Origin: Actinomycetes bacterium
Lineage (GTDB): Bacteria > Actinomycetota > Acidimicrobiia > Acidimicrobiales > Acidimicrobiaceae
Length of the DNA stretch: 34,215 nucleotides
Direction of reading: 5' to 3'
NCBI GenBank assembly: GCA_021810525.1
Contig: JAJZIP010000012.1
Span: 1 to 34,215 of the forward strand
Under the pieces are notes generated by a model. The model made no database searches. It was not told the origin of the DNA and was given only the letters and a program-made list of their open reading frames with translations. The position numbers and the translations under genes were made by a program. Below, piece by piece: positions 9,185-34,215 of the stretch (the stretch's first letter is position 1; every line of letters starts with the position of its first letter).

Positions 9185-9979
9185 TTAGAGCGGTTTGGTG
9201 GCTTCGATGACTGCAGAAACCACGTAGTCGGTGATGTCGGCACCTGGAGCCCAGTCCTTCATAAATGATGAACTTTCGAACTTTGGCTCGATTCTGATCT
9301 CGGTAAAGCCGGCATCACGAAGCATTCTGTCCACTTCGCTGACAGAAGAGGCCCCGGCTACACAAGCGCTATACATCTCGACATCCTGGCGGGTTGATTC
9401 AGGGATATCCGCAAAAGCAACGACGTCGGAGATCGCGACTCGTCCACCGGACCGCAAAACACGAAAGGCTTCGCGGAAAACCCTCGGTTTGTCTGGTGAA
9501 AGATTTACAACACAATTCGATATAACGACATCAACGGAGCAGTCGGGGACTGGCAGATTCTCGATTTCACCAAGACGAAATTCAACATTTCCAAACCCAC
9601 CGCGCTCGGCATTGAGACGCGCCTTGGAGATCATTGCTGGGGTCATGTCGACACCGATAGCTCGTCCTTCGCCACCTACCCGTTGAGCAGCTAAGAAACA
9701 GTCGAGGCCACCACCGCTTCCTAAATCAAGCACCACCTCACCAAGGCGAAGCGCAGCGATAGCCATTGGATTGCCGCATCCGAGCCCCATGTCCGCCCCA
9801 TCTGGGAGTGACGCTAGATCGTCATCACTGTAGCCGAGTTGGCTCGACACGCTGGATCGGTCTCCGCCAGTGAGCTCACAGCAGCTAGATCCGCAGCCGC
9901 AGGGTTCCTCCTCAGTTGCTATCGCGCTGTATTGATTGCGCACGGCCTCTCGAATCTGGTCGCTTTCAACTGGGTTCAT
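9185..9979 (-). CDS. arsM: Arsenite S-adenosylmethionine methyltransferase ArsM
   Basis: ArsM methylates trivalent arsenic with SAM, yielding methylated and finally volatile arsines. The 264-residue product has SAM motif I (LDLGSGGGLDC, 84-94) and three cysteines at the places of the As(III)-binding triad: C68 in GLGCGNP, C156 in SNCVVNLS and C206 in YSACVAGA. An extra N-terminal Cys cluster (C27, C29, C33, C34 in CGCGSSCC) occurs in several ArsM proteins. The frame stays open far upstream, but AGGAGG at 9984-9989 supports the ATG at 9979; spacing is only 4 bp. No ArsR, ArsB or ArsC gene is near. The only upstream neighbour is a broken ECF sigma gene in the same frame. Confidence 0.93.
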   Translation of the reverse strand: MNPVESDQIREAVRNQYSAIATEEEPCGCGSSCCELTGGDRSSVSSQLGYSDDDLASLPDGADMGLGCGNPMAIAALRLGEVVLDLGSGGGLDCFLAAQRVGGEGRAIGVDMTPAMISKARLNAERGGFGNVEFRLGEIENLPVPDCSVDVVISNCVVNLSPDKPRVFREAFRVLRSGGRVAISDVVAFADIPESTRQDVEMYSACVAGASSVSEVDRMLRDAGFTEIRIEPKFESSSFMKDWAPGADITDYVVSAVIEATKPL

Positions 9980-10021
9980 GCATCCTCCTGTACTTCGTAG
10001 AGCTATTCCGAGCCTATTCAT

Positions 10022-14494: not shown

Positions 14495-15739
14495 GTGGCT
14501 TTTGTTCAATCTTTGAAGTGCCGTGAGTGTCACAAGACCTATCCGATCGAGGCACTGCATGTTTGTGAGTTCTGCTTTGGTCCACTCGAGGTTGCGTACG
14601 ATTACGAGGGGATAGCCGCATCGATATCCCGGGAGAAGATTGCGAGTGGACCCCCCACCATTTGGCGCTACGCGGATCTCCTTCCTGTCGATGGCACGGA
14701 TTATGTGTCATTGGGAGCTGGCTTCACCCCGCTGGTTAAAGCGCGAAGTTTAGGTGAGGAACTCGGACTGCCGAATCTGTGGCTCAAGAACGATACTGTC
14801 AATCCGACAGGGTCCTTCAAGGACAGGGTGGTCTCCGTGGCGCTCTCGAAGGCGCGAGAGCTTGGTCTCAAGGTCGCTGCATGCGCCTCGACAGGCAATC
14901 TTGCCAACTCGGTCGCAGCTCATGCGGCATGGGCGGGAATGGAGTCTTATGTGTTCATTCCAGCCAACCTGGAGAAGGCGAAGATAATAACAACCTCTAT
15001 TTTCGGGGGAAACCTAATTGCAATTGAAGGCAATTACGACGATGTGAACAGGTTGTGTGCGGAACTCGCGTCAGAGGAACCAACCTGGGCTTTTGTCAAC
15101 GTGAACGTGAGAGCTTACTACTCGGAGGGTTCGAAGACCCTGGCTTTTGAGGTGGCCGAGCAGCTTGGCTGGAAAGCGCCTGACCACGTTATCGTTCCTG
15201 TGGGCTCTGGCAGTCAGTTGACCAAGATCCACAAGGGCTTCCATGAGTTGTACGAGGTAGGTCTCTTGGACGAAGAGCCGAATGTAAGGATTTCAGGAGC
15301 GCAGGCGGCGGGCTGTTCACCCGTGGCCACTGCATTTGCGGCGGGGTATGACTACGTGCGGCCGGTCAAGCCAAACACCATCGCTAAGTCTCTGGCGATA
15401 GGAAATCCGGCTGACGGTTTTTACGCACTTGATGTGGTTCGCAAGAGCGGGGGCTCGTTCGGATCGGTCACTGACGAGGAAATAATTGAAGGAATGGGCC
15501 TCCTTGCTCGCACCGAAGGTATCTTTGCCGAGACCGCGGGGGGCGTGACGATCGCGACTCTGGCCAAGCTCGCCAAGGAGGGCATCGTCAGGCCTGACGA
15601 GACCGTTGTCGCCTACATAACGGGCAATGGTCTAAAGACAGTGGAAGCGCTGGAGGACTCGCAAGGTCCCACTTATGTAATCAAGCCAACCTTGGAGGCG
15701 TTTACCGAGGTGTACCAATCTAAAAGGAGCAATCAATGA
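14495..15739 (+). CDS. Threonine-synthase-like PLP enzyme with N-terminal zinc ribbon
   Basis: This 414-residue fold-type II PLP enzyme would be annotated as threonine synthase (ThrC), which converts O-phosphohomoserine to threonine. It starts with a four-cysteine zinc ribbon (C9, C12, C24, C27; CRECHKTYP and CEFCFGP). The PLP lysine is K109 in NPTGSFKDR, and the phosphate-binding loop is STGNLANS (132-139). The GTG start follows GAGGAG by 6 bp, inside the reach of a SAM riboswitch. Its last codons overlap the start of a CysO-like sulfur carrier gene (ATGA). Control by SAM plus pairing with a sulfur carrier fits sulfur incorporation, such as homocysteine formation from O-phosphohomoserine, better than plain threonine synthesis. 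That reassignment is inference; true ThrC activity remains possible. Confidence 0.85.
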   Translation: MAFVQSLKCRECHKTYPIEALHVCEFCFGPLEVAYDYEGIAASISREKIASGPPTIWRYADLLPVDGTDYVSLGAGFTPLVKARSLGEELGLPNLWLKNDTVNPTGSFKDRVVSVALSKARELGLKVAACASTGNLANSVAAHAAWAGMESYVFIPANLEKAKIITTSIFGGNLIAIEGNYDDVNRLCAELASEEPTWAFVNVNVRAYYSEGSKTLAFEVAEQLGWKAPDHVIVPVGSGSQLTKIHKGFHELYEVGLLDEEPNVRISGAQAAGCSPVATAFAAGYDYVRPVKPNTIAKSLAIGNPADGFYALDVVRKSGGSFGSVTDEEIIEGMGLLARTEGIFAETAGGVTIATLAKLAKEGIVRPDETVVAYITGNGLKTVEALEDSQGPTYVIKPTLEAFTEVYQSKRSNQ

Positions 15740-16017
15740 GCACGACAGTCCGCGTACCCACCCAGCTACGGTCTCTGACCGGCGGATTGGCGGAGCTGCA
15801 AATCGACGGTTCAACCGTTGGCGAGATTTTGGGGAAGATCGACTCAGAGTACCCAGGTTTGGGTGAGAGAATCTTCGATGAAAGCGGGGCGCTCAGGAGA
15901 TTTGTGAACGTGTTCCTCGCGGACGAGGACGTGCGTTTCTTGGAAGGGCTCGATACTCCGGTCAAGGAGAATCAGGTACTTTCCATTGTTCCCGCCGTGG
16001 CAGGCGGATCGCACTAA
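15736..16017 (+). CDS. CysO/MoaD/ThiS-like sulfur carrier protein
   Basis: This 93-residue ubiquitin-fold protein closely resembles mycobacterial CysO in length and in segments such as RRFVNVFLADEDVRFLEGLD and the end IVPAVAGG. In CysO the C-terminal Gly-Gly is activated and turned into a thiocarboxylate that donates sulfur to the PLP enzyme CysM. Here Gly-Gly is followed by Ser-His, so the tail must be trimmed, as HcyS of Wolinella is trimmed by a metalloprotease, before the glycine can carry sulfur. The ATG overlaps the stop of the thrC-like gene by 4 bp and is preceded by AAAAGGAGC. Stoichiometric partnership with that enzyme is likely. No E1-like (MoeZ/ThiF) or Mec-type protease gene lies in the window. 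Confidence 0.9.
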   Translation: MSTTVRVPTQLRSLTGGLAELQIDGSTVGEILGKIDSEYPGLGERIFDESGALRRFVNVFLADEDVRFLEGLDTPVKENQVLSIVPAVAGGSH

Positions 16018-16122: not shown

Positions 16123-17800
<1,678 letters not shown>

Positions 17801-17826
17801 TTCGCCAGGGCAAAAGAAGTAAACCT

Positions 17827-17848
17827 GAGGGAGGCTGCGGCCTCCCTC
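17827..17848 (+). terminator. Terminator after groEL
   Basis: A 9-bp perfect stem GAGGGAGGC / GCCTCCCTC with a TGCG loop lies 26 bp after the groEL stop and is followed by the moderately T-rich GTTGTATTTG. Confidence 0.8.
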
Positions 17849-18236
17849 GTTGTATTTGCGCTACGACTGGGATGTTCCAGCGTTGCGCGGTGCCAGAGTG
17901 AAGCCGAAGCTGAACGAGTGTCATTAGAAGGTGAGAGACTTAGGAAACGAAGATCTTTGGTGGCATGGCTCCGATCACGTAAAGGGGTCACAGGTGAGGA
18001 CGGACTGGCCGTCATAGATCGCTTGTAAGGCCCCGTGGTCGACGGTCGAATCTGTGCGGGCCTTGTCCATCTCTAAGTGCTGGAAAGCTGCCATGAATGA
18101 GAGGCCCTAGCCCACCTGGCAGTTCAAAACATCAACGCGGTCCTCCCCGATTGAGACCGCTTTGGACCACTCAACTGCTACCGTAGGTGTGCATCAGGGC
18201 GGTTTGTTCCAAGGGCTAATGGTTGAGGAGATATCG
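17849..18236. other. Intergenic stretch before hemQ
   Basis: About 390 bp without a recognisable gene. One short frame (about 17918-18028, GTG start, 36 codons, basic) matches nothing I know. A 6-bp inverted repeat with a 12-nt loop (GCGGTC 18137-18142, GACCGC 18155-18160) followed by TTT might be a weak hairpin in the hemQ leader. Confidence 0.4.
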
Positions 18237-18956
18237 ATGAGCGATGATCTGGCTGAAAATGAAGTCGTGGTACCGGGAGTCCCCAGAGAGGGCTGGTCGG
18301 TCCTGCACCTTTTCTTCCATGTGGCTCCCGGGATCGATAAGGCGGGGATAGCCGACGCTTTGAAGTCGGCGGTAGGGGACAGTTACCAGGTCGTGACCGC
18401 AACGTTGATGGGCCACAAGGCAGATATGGCCGTCATGGCTCTGGGTCCGGATATGTGTCGGCTGCGGAGGCTGCAAAGTGACCTCCAGAACTCAGGTCTT
18501 AGCCTTGCGGACTCCTATTTCTCACTAACCGAGGTTTCAGAGTATGCAAAGGGCCTACCTGTGGACAGAAGGGCTCCACGACTCTACCCGCTCCTTCCTC
18601 CTTCTGGGATGCGGGCTTTCTGCTTCTATCCGATGTCGAAAAGGCGTGAAGTCGGGGCTAACTGGTACCGTCTCAGCTACCAAGAGCGCGAAGAGCAGAT
18701 GATGGCGCACGGAGGATCAGGACGCAAGTTTTCCGGAAGGATCATCCAGTTGATCACCGGGTCCACCGGACTTGACCGCTACGAGTGGGGCGTCACTCTA
18801 TTTGGGCAGCGCATAGATGATATAAAAGATGTGGTTTATACGCTAAGATTCGACGAGGTGTCCGCCGTGTATGCCGAATTCGGCCCATTTTATGTCGGCC
18901 TAGTTGACAAGCCCGAGACAGTTCTCGCAACATGCCTTTCAGGTTCAAACCAGTGA
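18237..18956 (+). CDS. hemQ: Coproheme decarboxylase HemQ (ChdC)
   Basis: HemQ decarboxylates coproheme III to haem b, the last step of the coproporphyrin-dependent pathway of Gram-positive bacteria. The chlorite-dismutase-fold protein has the catalytic tyrosine Y131 in FCFYPMSKRR, the NWY motif and the haem-ligand histidine H158 in MMAHGGSGR. The chlorite dismutase distal arginine is not in its place, which speaks against chlorite dismutase. The frame is open from 18162, but GAGGAG (18225-18230) 6 bp before ATG 18237 gives 239 residues, close to actinobacterial HemQ. larE follows after about 40 bp. No other haem gene is in the window. Confidence 0.94.
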   Translation: MSDDLAENEVVVPGVPREGWSVLHLFFHVAPGIDKAGIADALKSAVGDSYQVVTATLMGHKADMAVMALGPDMCRLRRLQSDLQNSGLSLADSYFSLTEVSEYAKGLPVDRRAPRLYPLLPPSGMRAFCFYPMSKRREVGANWYRLSYQEREEQMMAHGGSGRKFSGRIIQLITGSTGLDRYEWGVTLFGQRIDDIKDVVYTLRFDEVSAVYAEFGPFYVGLVDKPETVLATCLSGSNQ

Positions 18957-18998
18957 GCCGTTGCGCTCCATGGAGGTCAGAACCATATGGAGATTCAA

Positions 18999-19868
18999 AT
19001 GAATGAGCAATCGGCATCACCGAAGGAGCAGCTTTCGCAGGCAGGCTTTGAGATTGTGGCGTCTCACAGCGTATTTACCGCCCTGGTCTCTCGCTTGCGA
19101 GAGCTGGGAGGGGTGGCTGTCGCCTTTTCGGGAGGCGTGGATTCGACATTTTTGGCCTTTGTCGCAAGAGCGGTATTGGGCAGAGACGGTGTGCAAGCGA
19201 TAACCGCGGTATCGCCTTCTCTAGGGAGTGGAGAGTTTGAGCACTGTCGATATCTGGCTGAGCTCTGGGACATTCCATTCCTCTCCGTTCTTACGCGAGA
19301 GATGGAGAATCCGAATTACCTGGCAAATAGAGAGGACCGTTGCTACTGGTGCAAAGCTGAATTGATGAGCTCAATCGCGCCCATCATTGAGTCAACCAAC
19401 TTTCACGTTGTCTTGGGAGTCAATCTCGACGACCTGGGGGATCATAGGCCTGGGCAGCAGGCCGCCAAAGAGGCCAGTGCATTCTTCCCTCTCGTGGATG
19501 CCGGGTACACGAAAACCCTCATAAGAGAGCACTCGCGAGAGCTCGGGCTTTCCACCTGGGATCGTCCTCAGTCCGCCTGCCTTGCCTCTCGCATTCCTTA
19601 TGGTACTCCGGTCTCTTTACCGATCCTCGCCCAACTTGATCGTGCAGAGGCCGCGCTGAAAAGGCTCGGTTTCGCTCAGGTGAGGGTAAGACACTACGAC
19701 TCATTAGCGAGAATCGAATTCACGATCGAAGACCTTGAGCGGGCATTGGAAAAGCGCGTAGAGATTGTCGCAGCAGTCCGACGTGCAGGCTATGACTACG
19801 TTACGGTTGATCTTGAAGGCTTCAGATCGGGGAATTTAAATTCCAAGATTATCCCACAAGTGTCTTAG
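18999..19868 (+). CDS. larE: ATP-dependent sacrificial sulfur transferase LarE
   Basis: LarE adenylates the carboxylates of pyridinium dicarboxylate mononucleotide and donates sulfur from its own cysteine, to make the nickel-pincer cofactor of lactate racemase and relatives. The protein has the PP-loop FSGGVDST near residue 45, RCYWCK, GVNLDDLGDHRPG, and the segment QSACLASRIPYG, whose Cys corresponds by position to the sacrificial Cys176 of Lactobacillus LarE (inference). ATG 18999 has GGAG 7 bp upstream; ATG 18987 is an alternative. Neither larB nor larC is adjacent. It lies between hemQ and a NIL-domain gene, 56 bp before the latter. Confidence 0.9.
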   Translation: MNEQSASPKEQLSQAGFEIVASHSVFTALVSRLRELGGVAVAFSGGVDSTFLAFVARAVLGRDGVQAITAVSPSLGSGEFEHCRYLAELWDIPFLSVLTREMENPNYLANREDRCYWCKAELMSSIAPIIESTNFHVVLGVNLDDLGDHRPGQQAAKEASAFFPLVDAGYTKTLIREHSRELGLSTWDRPQSACLASRIPYGTPVSLPILAQLDRAEAALKRLGFAQVRVRHYDSLARIEFTIEDLERALEKRVEIVAAVRRAGYDYVTVDLEGFRSGNLNSKIIPQVS

Positions 19869-19924
19869 AATGCCGTGGTTGGCTAGTCTCTAGAGTGTTG
19901 TTATTTGAAGCTCGGAGGCAGGAT

Positions 19925-20164
19925 TTGGCAACTCAAAGAGTCAAGCTCATCTATCCGGAGTCCCTGATCACCAGACCTGTCCTGTCTGAAGTGACGCTTC
20001 AGTTCAAGGTGATGTCGAACATTCGTCGAGCCGCGGTCGATGAAGGCAGTGGATGGATAATTTGTGAGTTAGAGGGCGATGCAGAGTCGATAAGGCGGGC
20101 CATGGACTGGGTGGCTTCGCTCGGTGTCGAAGTCGAAGGCTTGGGCGACGTCGTAGAAAGCTGA
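19925..20164 (+). CDS. Small NIL-domain protein
   Basis: A 79-residue protein consisting of one NIL domain, the ferredoxin-like ACT-related fold also found at the C-terminus of the methionine importer ATPase MetN and in methanogen homocysteine-synthesis proteins. The typical start RVKLIYPESLITRPVLSEV is followed by the core segment FKVMSNIRRA and the helix ending GVEVEGLG. I place the start at TTG 19925 because GGAGG at 19914-19918 lies 6 bp upstream; the frame opens at 19895. It probably belongs to the larE transcript. Stand-alone NIL proteins often sit near sulfur or thiol amino-acid genes; a ligand or partner role here is inferred. Confidence 0.82.
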   Translation: MATQRVKLIYPESLITRPVLSEVTLQFKVMSNIRRAAVDEGSGWIICELEGDAESIRRAMDWVASLGVEVEGLGDVVES

Positions 20165-20829: not shown

Positions 20830-21015
20830 CTAGCTTTTCGGAACGTGCCAGCCAGCTTTCGAGATCCCGTCCCTAGGTTCGAAGAACAGGCAGTTTTCGG
20901 GACACGCAAAAGGAAAGGGTTCGTTCACGCCTAAGCGGCACTTTTCGATCTTGTCTCCGGATTTGACCGTCTGCATTATGTAGTGTTTGCACTCCGTGTT
21001 GACCGCCATCACCAT
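20830..21015 (-). CDS. Small cysteine-rich conserved hypothetical protein
   Basis: A protein of about 61 residues with four cysteines and a His (CKHYIMQ, KCRL, ACPENCLFFEPR), probably a small metal-binding fold. It resembles short uncharacterised actinobacterial proteins that I recall with the same CP-x2-C-x-FFEPR ending, but I know no function. The frame is open from 21084; ATG 21015 or 21009 places the start before the first conserved Cys. No strong ribosome binding site is seen. It is divergent from the Nudix gene. Confidence 0.65.
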   Translation of the reverse strand: MVMAVNTECKHYIMQTVKSGDKIEKCRLGVNEPFPFACPENCLFFEPRDGISKAGWHVPKS

Positions 21016-21077
21016 CGAGCATATATCTTGCTGGAAATGTGTCCGCAGTAGCAAATTTGTGAATTGACGAGGATTTG

Positions 21078-21806
21078 GTGTCACATTTGCAGAGATTTTT
21101 CGCTAGCTTCAATTATGTGGATGTTGCAAGATCAGCATTGAATCGATGGAGCGAGGCTCTTGCTGGCATTGCCAGTACAGGCCTTTCTTTTACGGATAGC
21201 CTCTACGAAAAGGAGCGATTCGAAGAGATACTTCATGTAGCTGCAGAGATTAAGGCCTTTCTTAACGGGCATCCCGATTTGGACGACCGATACGTGGATG
21301 AGGTTTATGAACTCTGGCGGGAGTCGATCGGCCGGGGAATTCCCGGCTATGTCACACCTAAAACGGCAGTTGGCGCGATAGTAGGAAATCAGCGCAAAGA
21401 GCTGCTCTTGGTTCGAAGGTCTGATTCCGGCGTTTGGCTATATCCAACCGGCTGGGCCGATGTTGGGTATAGCCCTGCGGAGATAGTAGCTAAAGAGGTT
21501 TTCGAGGAGACAGGGATCGTGGTCAGGCCCGCCAGACTGCTCTCGGTCGTCGACGGGATGCAGCGCGGCTTTACCACCGTGCCCATGTATTCGATGATTT
21601 TCTACTGCGAGCAGGTGGGCGGTGAGCTCAAGGCACACCCATTAGAGTGTCTCGAGGTTGGTTGGTTCACACAGGACGCTCTGCCAAGCCCTCTTGCTGC
21701 TGTAGGAAGCTGGGTGTCGATGGCGTTCGCAGCTGTCAACGGCGACCATGCCGAGACGTATTTTGATCCCCCGAGAGATCCGCTCTGGGCTTCACCAAAG
21801 GATTGA
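21078..21806 (+). CDS. Nudix hydrolase with N-terminal NUDIX_N domain
   Basis: The 242-residue protein has a NUDIX_N domain (about 20-60; RWSEALAGIASTGLSF, then YEKERFEEIL) followed by a Nudix domain (about 95-235). The Nudix box runs from G125 to I147. It departs from the canonical GX5EX7REUXEEXGU at two places (Tyr131 for Glu and Lys139 for Arg) while keeping the EVFEETG core; these changes are typical of the YjhB-like NUDIX_N family. Members hydrolyse nucleoside diphosphate derivatives such as ADP-ribose; the substrate here is unknown. GAGGA sits 4 bp before GTG 21078; TTG 21075 is an alternative. Confidence 0.88.
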   Translation: MSHLQRFFASFNYVDVARSALNRWSEALAGIASTGLSFTDSLYEKERFEEILHVAAEIKAFLNGHPDLDDRYVDEVYELWRESIGRGIPGYVTPKTAVGAIVGNQRKELLLVRRSDSGVWLYPTGWADVGYSPAEIVAKEVFEETGIVVRPARLLSVVDGMQRGFTTVPMYSMIFYCEQVGGELKAHPLECLEVGWFTQDALPSPLAAVGSWVSMAFAAVNGDHAETYFDPPRDPLWASPKD

Positions 21807-25239: not shown

Positions 25240-25465
25240 GTAAACGTCTCTAACCTGTTTCGCCTGTGTGTACAGATCAGACAAGAACCGCGAGAGCCAA
25301 GCGGTCTTTGCTTGTAAAGCTTGCGGGCATGAACAACATGCGGACTCAAACGCCGCTATGGACATGCTTGCCACAGGACTTGGCACCTTTTTGGGGGTCT
25401 CAGGACGCAAAGGGACACCCGATTGCGGGCCCGGTGAAGCGCGATCCACCCGAGTGGCCTGAACT
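25240..25465 (+). pseudogene. TnpB C-terminal remnant (IS200/IS605 superfamily)
   Basis: The segment NRESQAVFACKACGHEQHAD followed by SNAAMDML is the second half of the TnpB zinc finger and the RuvC-III region, including the Asp of HADSNAA. The preceding SPVC in another frame is probably the first half of the zinc finger, so there is a frameshift near 25270-25285. Everything upstream (wedge domain, RuvC-I and II) is missing. The family is the one to which RNA-guided TnpB nucleases belong. This copy cannot be active. Confidence 0.8.
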
Positions 25466-32575: not shown

Positions 32576-34215
32576 ATGGAAGAGGCAGGTAACGAGTCGA
32601 AAAAGGAGCGGAAGCCGCGGGCACGAAAGCGTCCGAAGGACGCTCCCACTCATGTCGTCTCTGTCCCTTTACGACTGACTCCAGCCCAGCGCTCGATGGA
32701 AGAGATCAGGTTCGAGTCCAGTGGTCGGATTTACAACGCCTGCTCGAGAGAAGCCCTGCGTCGTTGCCAAAAGCTCCGGTCGGACCCAGCCGTTGAGATA
32801 GCCAAGGGCTTACCCACTGGGAAGAGGCGGTCCAAGGAGTCCAGTGTTCGAAACAGACATTCCATGAGGTGGAGCACGCCCACAGGTTTACCGAAGATTC
32901 AATGATGACCTTCGCCTCCGGTCTGCGTCAGTCCTGGGTTCGGGCTCAGGTTTACTTCCAGGAGGCCCAGGTCCTCGGTCGTCGGGTATACCGGGCCGTC
33001 AAACGGTGGCATCTGGGCCAGGGCGGGAAACCCCGGTTCAAGACGGCCAACCGCGGGTTGCGCTCCCTCGAGTGCAAGGAGCTGAACGGGGATCCCAAGC
33101 CAGCCATCGAGGACGGCGTCTGTGTCGGGATCAACCAGGGCAAGGCCAACACCCTTTGGTTCGCCCCCATCAAAGCGTCCGCTGGACGCAAGGCCCGCGA
33201 TCTGAAGATCGAACGGGATCGTCTCCTCACACAGGTGGCCAAGGGGAATGTTCTCTCGGTCCGGTTGGTGAAGATGATGGTAAGAGCTAAGAATGCATTT
33301 CGAGCTCAGTTCGTAATGGATGGAAACCCGCCCGAAGGTCACGAGATCGGCACTGGCGCTATTTCAATCGACCTGGGTCCGTCGTTCGTGGCCGTGGCGG
33401 AACGGTCCAGCCTAGGCACAGACCAGCTTTTCCCTGACGCCCCTGTCACCGGAGCTGGAATCCACCAGTTGGCGCAGGGCGTTGGCGACTGTGTTCGAGA
33501 GACTCGCCTCGTCCAGCGCAAACTGGACCGCCAGCACCAGGTTGGATAACCCAACCGTTTCCGCCCGGACGGCACCCACAAGACCAGGTGCGAGCGGCGG
33601 AACCGATCCAAGAACGCACGACAGACCGAGAGCGCCATAGCCGAGATTCATCGGAGATTGGCTGCCTATGGGAAGACCGCTTTTGGGACTGCGGTCACCG
33701 AGTGGCTGTCCGTCGGGATCCATCTTCATACAGAGAAGCTCAACTATGTGGCATGGCAGAAGAACTTCCCTTGCTCAGGGACCATGCTCGGAAAGAGTTG
33801 ATCGAGATTGCCCGTTGCAGGGCTGCAAGTGCTGGCGGCGGACTCTACGAATACTCTCCCTGGACGTCAGCGCTTTAGCAGACCTGCCTGTGCGGACAGA
33901 AGGATAAGAAACCACTGTCACAGAGGAACCACCACTGTCGCGGGTGCGGACTGGTGGTACAGCGAGACCTGCTCTCGGCGTTCTTGGGGATGCTAGCCCG
34001 CCCCGAGTTCGATCCACACACGGACGAAATCGTAGGAGACACACCCGACTTGGACCTTGCCCGCAAGGCACGGTCCATCGGTCCCGAGTTTACTGGCTGG
34101 CGAAGTCGAGTGAAGGCACGACCAGACATCGAGTTCGGAGACACCAGCGCACGTCGCTGCGGTCACTGGAGCGGATCAAGGCTCGTCGCAAGCGACGTTC
34201 CCGGTCCGACAGAGG
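32576..34215 (+). pseudogene. TnpB-family gene of IS605 type, several frameshifts and stops
   Basis: Fragments in three frames form one long TnpB: THVVSVPLRLTPAQRSMEEI near the N-terminus; a shift near 32840-32870 to KQTFHEVEHAHRFTEDSMMT; RuvC-I in GAISIDLGPSFVAVAERS; an in-frame TAA at 33547 inside RKLDRQHQVG; then PNRFRPDGTHK and IHLHTEKLNYVAWQKNFP (RuvC-II Glu); a shift near 33772 to RDHARKELIEIARCRA and GGGLYEYSPWTSAL; a TAG at 33877 where relatives have Ser; and the zinc finger CLCGQKDKKPLSQRNHHCRG with the RuvC-III Asp in VQRDLLSAFL. All three acidic residues survive, but at least two shifts and two stops inactivate it. The gene runs to the window edge. Confidence 0.88.

Follow-up and report, generated by a model that had tools for sequence, protein, structure and literature searches.

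The LarE encoded in the window (the whole stretch of 34,215 nucleotides of an Acidimicrobiales genome that was analysed here, contig JAJZIP010000012.1) belongs to a known class and is not unusual within it, and the new interest lies in its neighbour, a NIL-domain protein that is a small, conserved, and little-described companion of sulfur-transfer genes. The explanation that we favour, with modest confidence, is that a canonical LarE works with LarB and LarC supplied in trans, and that the NIL protein, which carries the motif NIRRA, serves bacterial sulfur-transfer modules as a general accessory, LarE being one client or neighbour. The features on which this explanation is built are listed in Table 1.

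Table 1. Genes and sequence elements in and around the larE-NIL pair, with positions in the window.
Feature	Position	Strand	Basis
Second ThrC-like PLP enzyme, N-terminal CxxC...CxxC	14495-15739	+	PF00291 254 bits, NF006050 307 bits
ThiS/MoaD-like sulfur-carrier protein, tail AVAGGSH	15736-16017	+	PF02597 52.3 bits
groEL (identified by eye), part of the conserved block	16178-17800	+	translation, synteny
Terminator-like hairpin after groEL, before hemQ-larE-NIL	17826-17849	+	scan, weak
Chlorite-dismutase/HemQ-family gene upstream of larE, start uncertain	18240-18956	+	PF06778 147.7 bits; synteny
larE, predicted [4Fe-4S]-type ATP-dependent sulfur insertase	18987-19868	+	TIGR00268 282 bits (cut-off 150)
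Codons of LarE CxxC (RCYWCK)	19341-19352	+	sequence, alignment
Codon of third LarE cluster cysteine (SACLASR)	19578-19580	+	sequence, alignment
GGAGG ribosome-binding site of the NIL gene	19914-19918	+	sequence; 6 nt upstream of TTG
Stand-alone 79-aa NIL protein, NIRRA subfamily, TTG start	19925-20164	+	PF09383 50.8 bits (cut-off 24)

The presence of LarE, as stated in the initial annotation, was confirmed by a match well over the curated cut-off of the family model, and its open reading frame was found to begin at 18987, the previously given start at 18999 being a second in-frame ATG and an alternative start. The protein contains the P-loop SGGVDS and, numbered from the ATG at 18987, Cys119 and Cys122 in a CxxC motif and a distant Cys198. 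In an alignment of rows of at least 240 residues, Cys occupied all three columns in each of the 64 distinct LarE rows from loci of the order. Such a CxxC with a distant Cys in LarE has been tied, in passages of PMC9283937, to a [4Fe-4S] cluster and to a sulfur transfer that is catalytic and not sacrificial. Judged from its sequence, the window LarE has the CxxC-C motif of this catalytic [4Fe-4S] class, and because the three-cysteine motif is tied to catalytic transfer, the word "sacrificial" in the NCBIfam name of LarE is probably inapplicable to the window protein. Among PDB entries, it matched LarE (5udq and 6b2o, E of about 1e-39) and 8cnz (E of 1e-16), which is named NAD_synthase domain-containing protein. 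Thermotoga maritima LarE, as described in the same passages (PMC9283937), has in common with the window protein the LarE family, an SGGxDS P-loop, and CxxC with a distant Cys, but these passages mention no NIL neighbour for it, whereas the window larE lies in a thrC-thiS-groEL-hemQ block away from larBC. In excerpts from the main text of PMC13329287, the neighbours named for LarE are LarC and LarB, and in a literature of 5.39 million papers the phrase "NIL domain", which is itself rare (three papers), was not found together with LarE.

The annotation had also called LarE an orphan. It was right in that neither LarB nor LarC was seen within the window, but the designation had to be abandoned, as the same genome (3.57 Mb, 343 contigs, completeness 90.7) encodes LarC on contig C100 (PF01969, 371 bits, profile match), LarB (PF00731) directly upstream of it, and a LarA homologue on C313 (PF09861, 138 bits), together with a single LarE above the cut-off. 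The genome thus holds LarB and LarC as components of the nickel-pincer nucleotide (NPN) pathway, plus an enzyme of the LarA family as user. The lar genes that would have spoken against the annotation were therefore present elsewhere in the genome, while the larE-NIL linkage, the lack of which would likewise have spoken against it, was conserved, as described below. The further proposal that LarE and NIL perform a sulfur insertion other than NPN synthesis found little support, and we consider it very improbable. Where larE and NIL are adjacent in the order, LarC was detected in 46 of 50 genomes (no match in G001, G030, G048, and G135), and where LarE and NIL have a common neighbourhood it was detected in 29 of 30 (G238 being the exception); the genomes scored for LarC include incomplete ones. 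Those four order genomes and one of the phylum could be taken in favour of another task, as could the eight of the best 80 of 168 named loci (see below) in which LarE lies in a cysK-tusA-thiS-E1-JAMM operon and not with larBC. However, the genomes of these eight loci carry LarC (L204 taken as G176 because the contigs are equal in length), the window genome has LarB, LarC, and the LarA homologue, and the window LarE keeps the P-loop and the three cysteines.

The NIL gene was likewise confirmed as annotated, with 79 residues, a TTG start, and a strong ribosome-binding site; its open reading frame had been listed as 19895-20161, and the length of 79 residues is obtained when it is read from the TTG. 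NIL was the sole Pfam match of the protein, in which neither an ABC ATPase domain nor a ferredoxin domain was found. An AlphaFold2 model (mean pLDDT 91.7, 30 sequences) showed the order beta-alpha-beta-beta-alpha-beta, and its top Foldseek match was the C2 domain of MetN (3tui_C, TM 0.90 by query, rmsd 1.2), so that the protein is predicted to have the ferredoxin-like fold of MetN C2. In a profile alignment with residues counted by hand, Asn32 of NIL aligned with Asn295 of E. coli MetN, the change of which to Ala abolishes L-Met binding (PMC12357092). Two residues after this conserved Asn, an Arg (Arg34) is typical of the subfamily and gives the motif NIRRA; it was present in 30 of 30 rows of the NIL alignment A3 and not in the loci L223, L231, and L159. 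Among the 30 best-scoring NIL loci of the phylum, four had NIRRA, all of them adjoining LarE, and the others were MetN-like or NILRA/NILKA, the motifs NILRA and NILKA occurring in NIL frames of 135-160 residues and SILGA-like motifs in MetN-like frames of these 30 best matches. By its sequence, the 79-residue NIL protein is one of a distinct subfamily of stand-alone NIL proteins with the typical motif NIRRA.

Two known kinds of NIL protein are suitable for comparison. The MetN C2 (NIL) domain (PDB 3dhx and 3tui; PMC12357092) has the same predicted fold and the same Asn, whereas the window protein stands alone with 79 residues and no ATPase, has NIRRA in place of the SILGA-like motif of MetN-like matches, and is without the four-residue insertion of E. 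coli MetN. The NIL/ferredoxin proteins, according to portions of PMC5764234 and PMC12068725, are tied to homocysteine synthesis together with DUF39, and control by methionine via the NIL domain has been proposed in part of the latter (PMC12068725). As far as these portions go, the likeness consists in a small NIL protein associated with sulfur insertion; the window protein differs in having no ferredoxin part and in having NIRRA instead of the NILRA/NILKA of the frames of 135-160 residues, a type assigned by frame length. We consider the window NIL to be most likely dimeric and metabolite-binding.

The linkage of the two genes was surveyed in the order and in the phylum. Among 148 genomes of the order, LarE was found over the cut-off in 130, a NIL match in 54 (53 over the cut-off), and LarC in 127, and in 50 of the 54 NIL-bearing genomes NIL lay directly downstream of LarE and on its strand, with a gap from LarE domain to NIL domain of 11 to 234 bases (median 50). 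As for the four other NIL-bearing genomes, NIL and LarE were on different contigs in G115 and G029, the NIL match was weak in G063, and G022 had NIL but neither LarE over the cut-off nor LarC. In a phylum sample of 217 genomes, a NIL match of any type was found in 97, LarE in 132, and the two as neighbours in 20, on opposite strands in two of these; from the 97 NIL genomes, 18 further LarE-adjacent loci and 10 other, mostly short, NIL frames were fetched. Gene-neighbour conservation thus extends across the order and to other families of the phylum, and because 50 of the 54 NIL-bearing order genomes have the pair, the larE-NIL pairing is more than chance. On the other hand, NIL is missing from most of the order genomes that have LarE, which indicates that LarE does not need NIL. 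No LarE-NIL fusion was found in the loci of the phylum sample by a same-frame test, and none was evident among the NIL frames of the named loci. In a tree of 88 LarE proteins (64 NIL-adjacent, 10 larBC-adjacent, and 14 other; fragments below 235 residues left out), a single gain of the adjacency was rejected, since four changes of label between NIL-adjacent and larBC-adjacent are needed; the tree was midpoint-rooted with 34 of 85 inner branches weakly supported, so the direction of change is unproven, and it fits an old LarE-NIL pairing with later relocations.

Such a linkage might mean that NIL is a dedicated LarE subunit that feeds sulfur or electrons to the [4Fe-4S] cluster, which we regard as unlikely. 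The adjacency in the order and in other families would agree with it, and so would the two phylum genomes in which the genes are adjacent despite opposite strands (G176 and G213). A GWxxCE motif, the Cys of which is present in 49 of the 52 distinct NIL rows from the order, would also be in keeping with such a subunit, but the other three rows lack this Cys, and NILs read from outside the order have Leu, Ile, Val, or Met in its place. Because these residues replace the Cys in the NILs read from the rest of the phylum, a Cys relay in NIL cannot be the general mechanism of sulfur carriage, and we rejected it.

The genomes in which NIL occurs apart from LarE argue further against a dedicated subunit. 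In G309, G268, and G207, LarE is beside larC (with larB too in two of them) and NIL is downstream of groEL, and eight NIL genomes (G022, G163, G150, G223, G233, G273, G299, and G311) have no LarE at an E value of 1e-30 or better; LarC is missing in seven of the eight, G299 having it. In six of these eight, another sulfur gene was present in the fetched stretch. G022 had hemQ-NIL with no LarE between, as did G163; G311 had thrC-thiS-NIL; G150 had Rrf2-NIL-IscS-IscU; G299 had NIL near a MnmA-NifU-domain fusion and a ThiI-like gene; G233 had cysE, NIL, and a cysK-like gene; and in G223 a CysK/PALP gene lay at a distance of about 0.7 kb. The fetched stretches of G163 and G273 yielded no identifiable sulfur gene. 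Thus, of the annotation's view that NIL is the partner of LarE, the conserved linkage stands and the specificity for LarE does not, as NIL is found also beside other sulfur-transfer genes and without LarE.

To this can be added the neighbourhoods of NIL in named genomes, the contigs of which were scanned with the NIL alignment; the best 80 of 168 relatives were used, with titles of Actinomycetota, Chloroflexota, Poribacteria, Omnitrophota, and others, and with many close Poribacteria among them. Within up to 6 kb on each side, at least one of 13 sulfur-related genes was found in 75 of these best 80 of 168 loci and at least two in 59, a count that was not blind, the 13 genes having been chosen after the neighbourhoods had been seen and the queries having come partly from the counted loci. 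A sulfur-transfer gene (those counted include ThiS, JAMM, E1, CysE/K, ThrC-like, LarE, MnmA, and IscS/U) lay within 500 bp of NIL in 70 of the 80, but LarE in only 15, which is not what would be expected of a dedicated LarE subunit. The 13 genes were absent from 20 of 20 background stretches (175 kb), which came from contigs picked arbitrarily in phylum genomes, with an average length of 8.7 versus 10.2 kb and no matching of organisms. The recurrent arrangements among the best 80 of 168 were rrf2-cysK-cysH-thiS-JAMM-NIL (17 loci), thrC-NIL-thiS (8 loci), cysE/NIL/larE-JAMM-E1-thiS-tusA-cysK-rrf2 (8 loci), and NIL/MnmA/ThiI (5 loci), and single arrangements, such as rrf2-E1-cysK-NIL-IscS-IscU, were seen too; the family names of the neighbours were checked by Pfam and NCBIfam on examples. 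None of the 13 genes was within 500 bp in 10 of the 80, and none was found anywhere in the stretch in L202, L213, L234, L252, and L258, of which L234 has groEL-hemQ-NIL.

Two observations were made on the same loci. In L204, L205, L209, L210, L216, L230, L242, and L253, all Actinomycetota and several titled Thermoleophilia, LarE is the last gene of an rrf2-cysK-tusA-thiS-E1-JAMM operon, and NIL and cysE come next. In the Poribacteria loci L202, L213, and L252, a DnaJ-like gene (by eye) directly follows NIL, and the stretch holds none of the sulfur genes used as queries.

Within the order, larE-NIL is part of a longer block, thrC-thiS-groEL-hemQ-larE-NIL, after which there are often genes for nudix, PAC2-like, and GNAT proteins and for citrate synthase (Pfam gave the names nudix, ThiS, ThrC-like, and chlorite-dismutase family; the others were named by eye). 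The window gene called hemQ here scored below the cut-off of the HemQ model NF008913 (201 versus 253 bits). From hemQ to NIL, a scan of weak discrimination (3 sites versus 1.9 expected in shuffles) gave no terminator-like site on the + strand, and hemQ-larE-NIL may be one transcript. A gene neighbourhood is not an interaction, and because the pair sits in an old conserved block in the order, its adjacency may partly be frozen gene order. That it is nothing else, i.e., the frozen order of an ancient block with no functional tie, seems to us improbable. The conservation of the entire block, groEL and citrate synthase included, would be explained in this way, as would the presence of NIL in the block at places without LarE and the retention of hemQ-larE in some LarE genomes without NIL. 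A gene order from a single ancestor, however, does not explain why NIL is beside different sulfur genes in different phyla, and larE-NIL is retained in L095, L096, L098, L100, L102, and L108, where neither HemQ nor GroEL was detected in the stretch, the gene for the multi-Cys protein C84 being present in five of the six. In the window, this protein of 84 residues is encoded at 20830-21084 on the - strand and has no Pfam match; in many order loci its gene adjoins the block.

The block also contains genes of sulfur carriage. The ThiS-like protein of the window would, from its tail, need trimming; the 60 distinct related frames include 30 that end in GG and 20 in which one to three residues follow the GG. 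An E1 (ThiF, 284.5 bits), with an N-terminus that is rhodanese-like by eye, is on C339 of the window genome. Because the genome's other ThrC over the cut-off, on C333, is beside a homoserine dehydrogenase gene, the ThrC-like enzyme of the window is free to have another role, and, lying next to the ThiS-like carrier, it could be thiocarboxylate-dependent.

As NIL adjoins many different sulfur-transfer genes in distantly related bacteria, these findings suggest that sulfur delivery has in it a helper or sensor that has been overlooked. In the preferred explanation, a general accessory with LarE as one client, LarE would activate P2CMN and insert sulfur via its cluster, as is established for the family, and LarB and LarC, encoded elsewhere in the genome, would act in trans with LarE on the nickel-pincer nucleotide. 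NIL would be a dimer that binds a sulfur-pathway metabolite in a pocket equivalent to the L-Met site of MetN, and would thereby regulate or dock the delivery of sulfur from carriers (ThiS thiocarboxylate, TusA, and IscS persulfide) to acceptor enzymes (LarE, CysK, the ThrC-like enzyme, and MnmA). Its small size of 79 residues and its recurrence near ThiS, CysK, LarE, MnmA, and IscS genes in several phyla make NIL a compact candidate where a shared sensor or docking factor for sulfur flux is sought.

A bolder version, which we offer only tentatively and consider rather doubtful, is that NIRRA-NIL is a hitherto undescribed core component of protein-thiocarboxylate sulfur transfer that gates the passage from ThiS-like carriers to the PP-loop enzymes LarE and MnmA and to the PLP enzymes CysK and the second ThrC-like enzyme. 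If this is true, a ThiS thiocarboxylate would be the sulfur source of LarE for the nickel-pincer cofactor, as TtuB is for TtuA, and thrC2-thiS-NIL would make homocysteine by a thiocarboxylate-dependent route that includes a methionine-sensing subunit. As for the in-cell sulfur donor of catalytic LarE, the presence of LarE inside operons of ThiS, TusA, E1, and JAMM points to a testable candidate, and IscS with cysteine serves LarE in vitro, as reported in a section of PMC9283937. TtuA-TtuB, also described in a section of that paper (PMC9283937), is a [4Fe-4S] PP-loop enzyme fed by a ThiS-like thiocarboxylate. The likeness consists in a predicted [4Fe-4S] PP-loop enzyme encoded near a ThiS-like carrier, whereas TtuA thiolates tRNA and LarE acts on P2CMN. 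Passages of Iyer et al, 2006 (PMC1779556) describe operons of ThiS-JAB-E1-SirA-cysteine synthase; these parts are contained in the eight larE-bearing cys operons, with LarE and NIL additional here, and the terms "NIL" and "PP-loop" were not found in the main text of that paper.

Elsewhere in the window, a remnant at 25268-25462 on the + strand gave a sub-threshold match to the Cas12f1-like TNB zinc finger (PF07282, 23.9 bits, cut-off 26.3) and is, from its sequence, probably a TnpB fragment, and a frame at 32869-33549 is TnpB-like by eye only, with no Pfam match. At 9185-10021 on the - strand, a methyltransferase (PF13847) is encoded that, by eye, resembles arsenite methyltransferases and is Cys-rich near the N-terminus.
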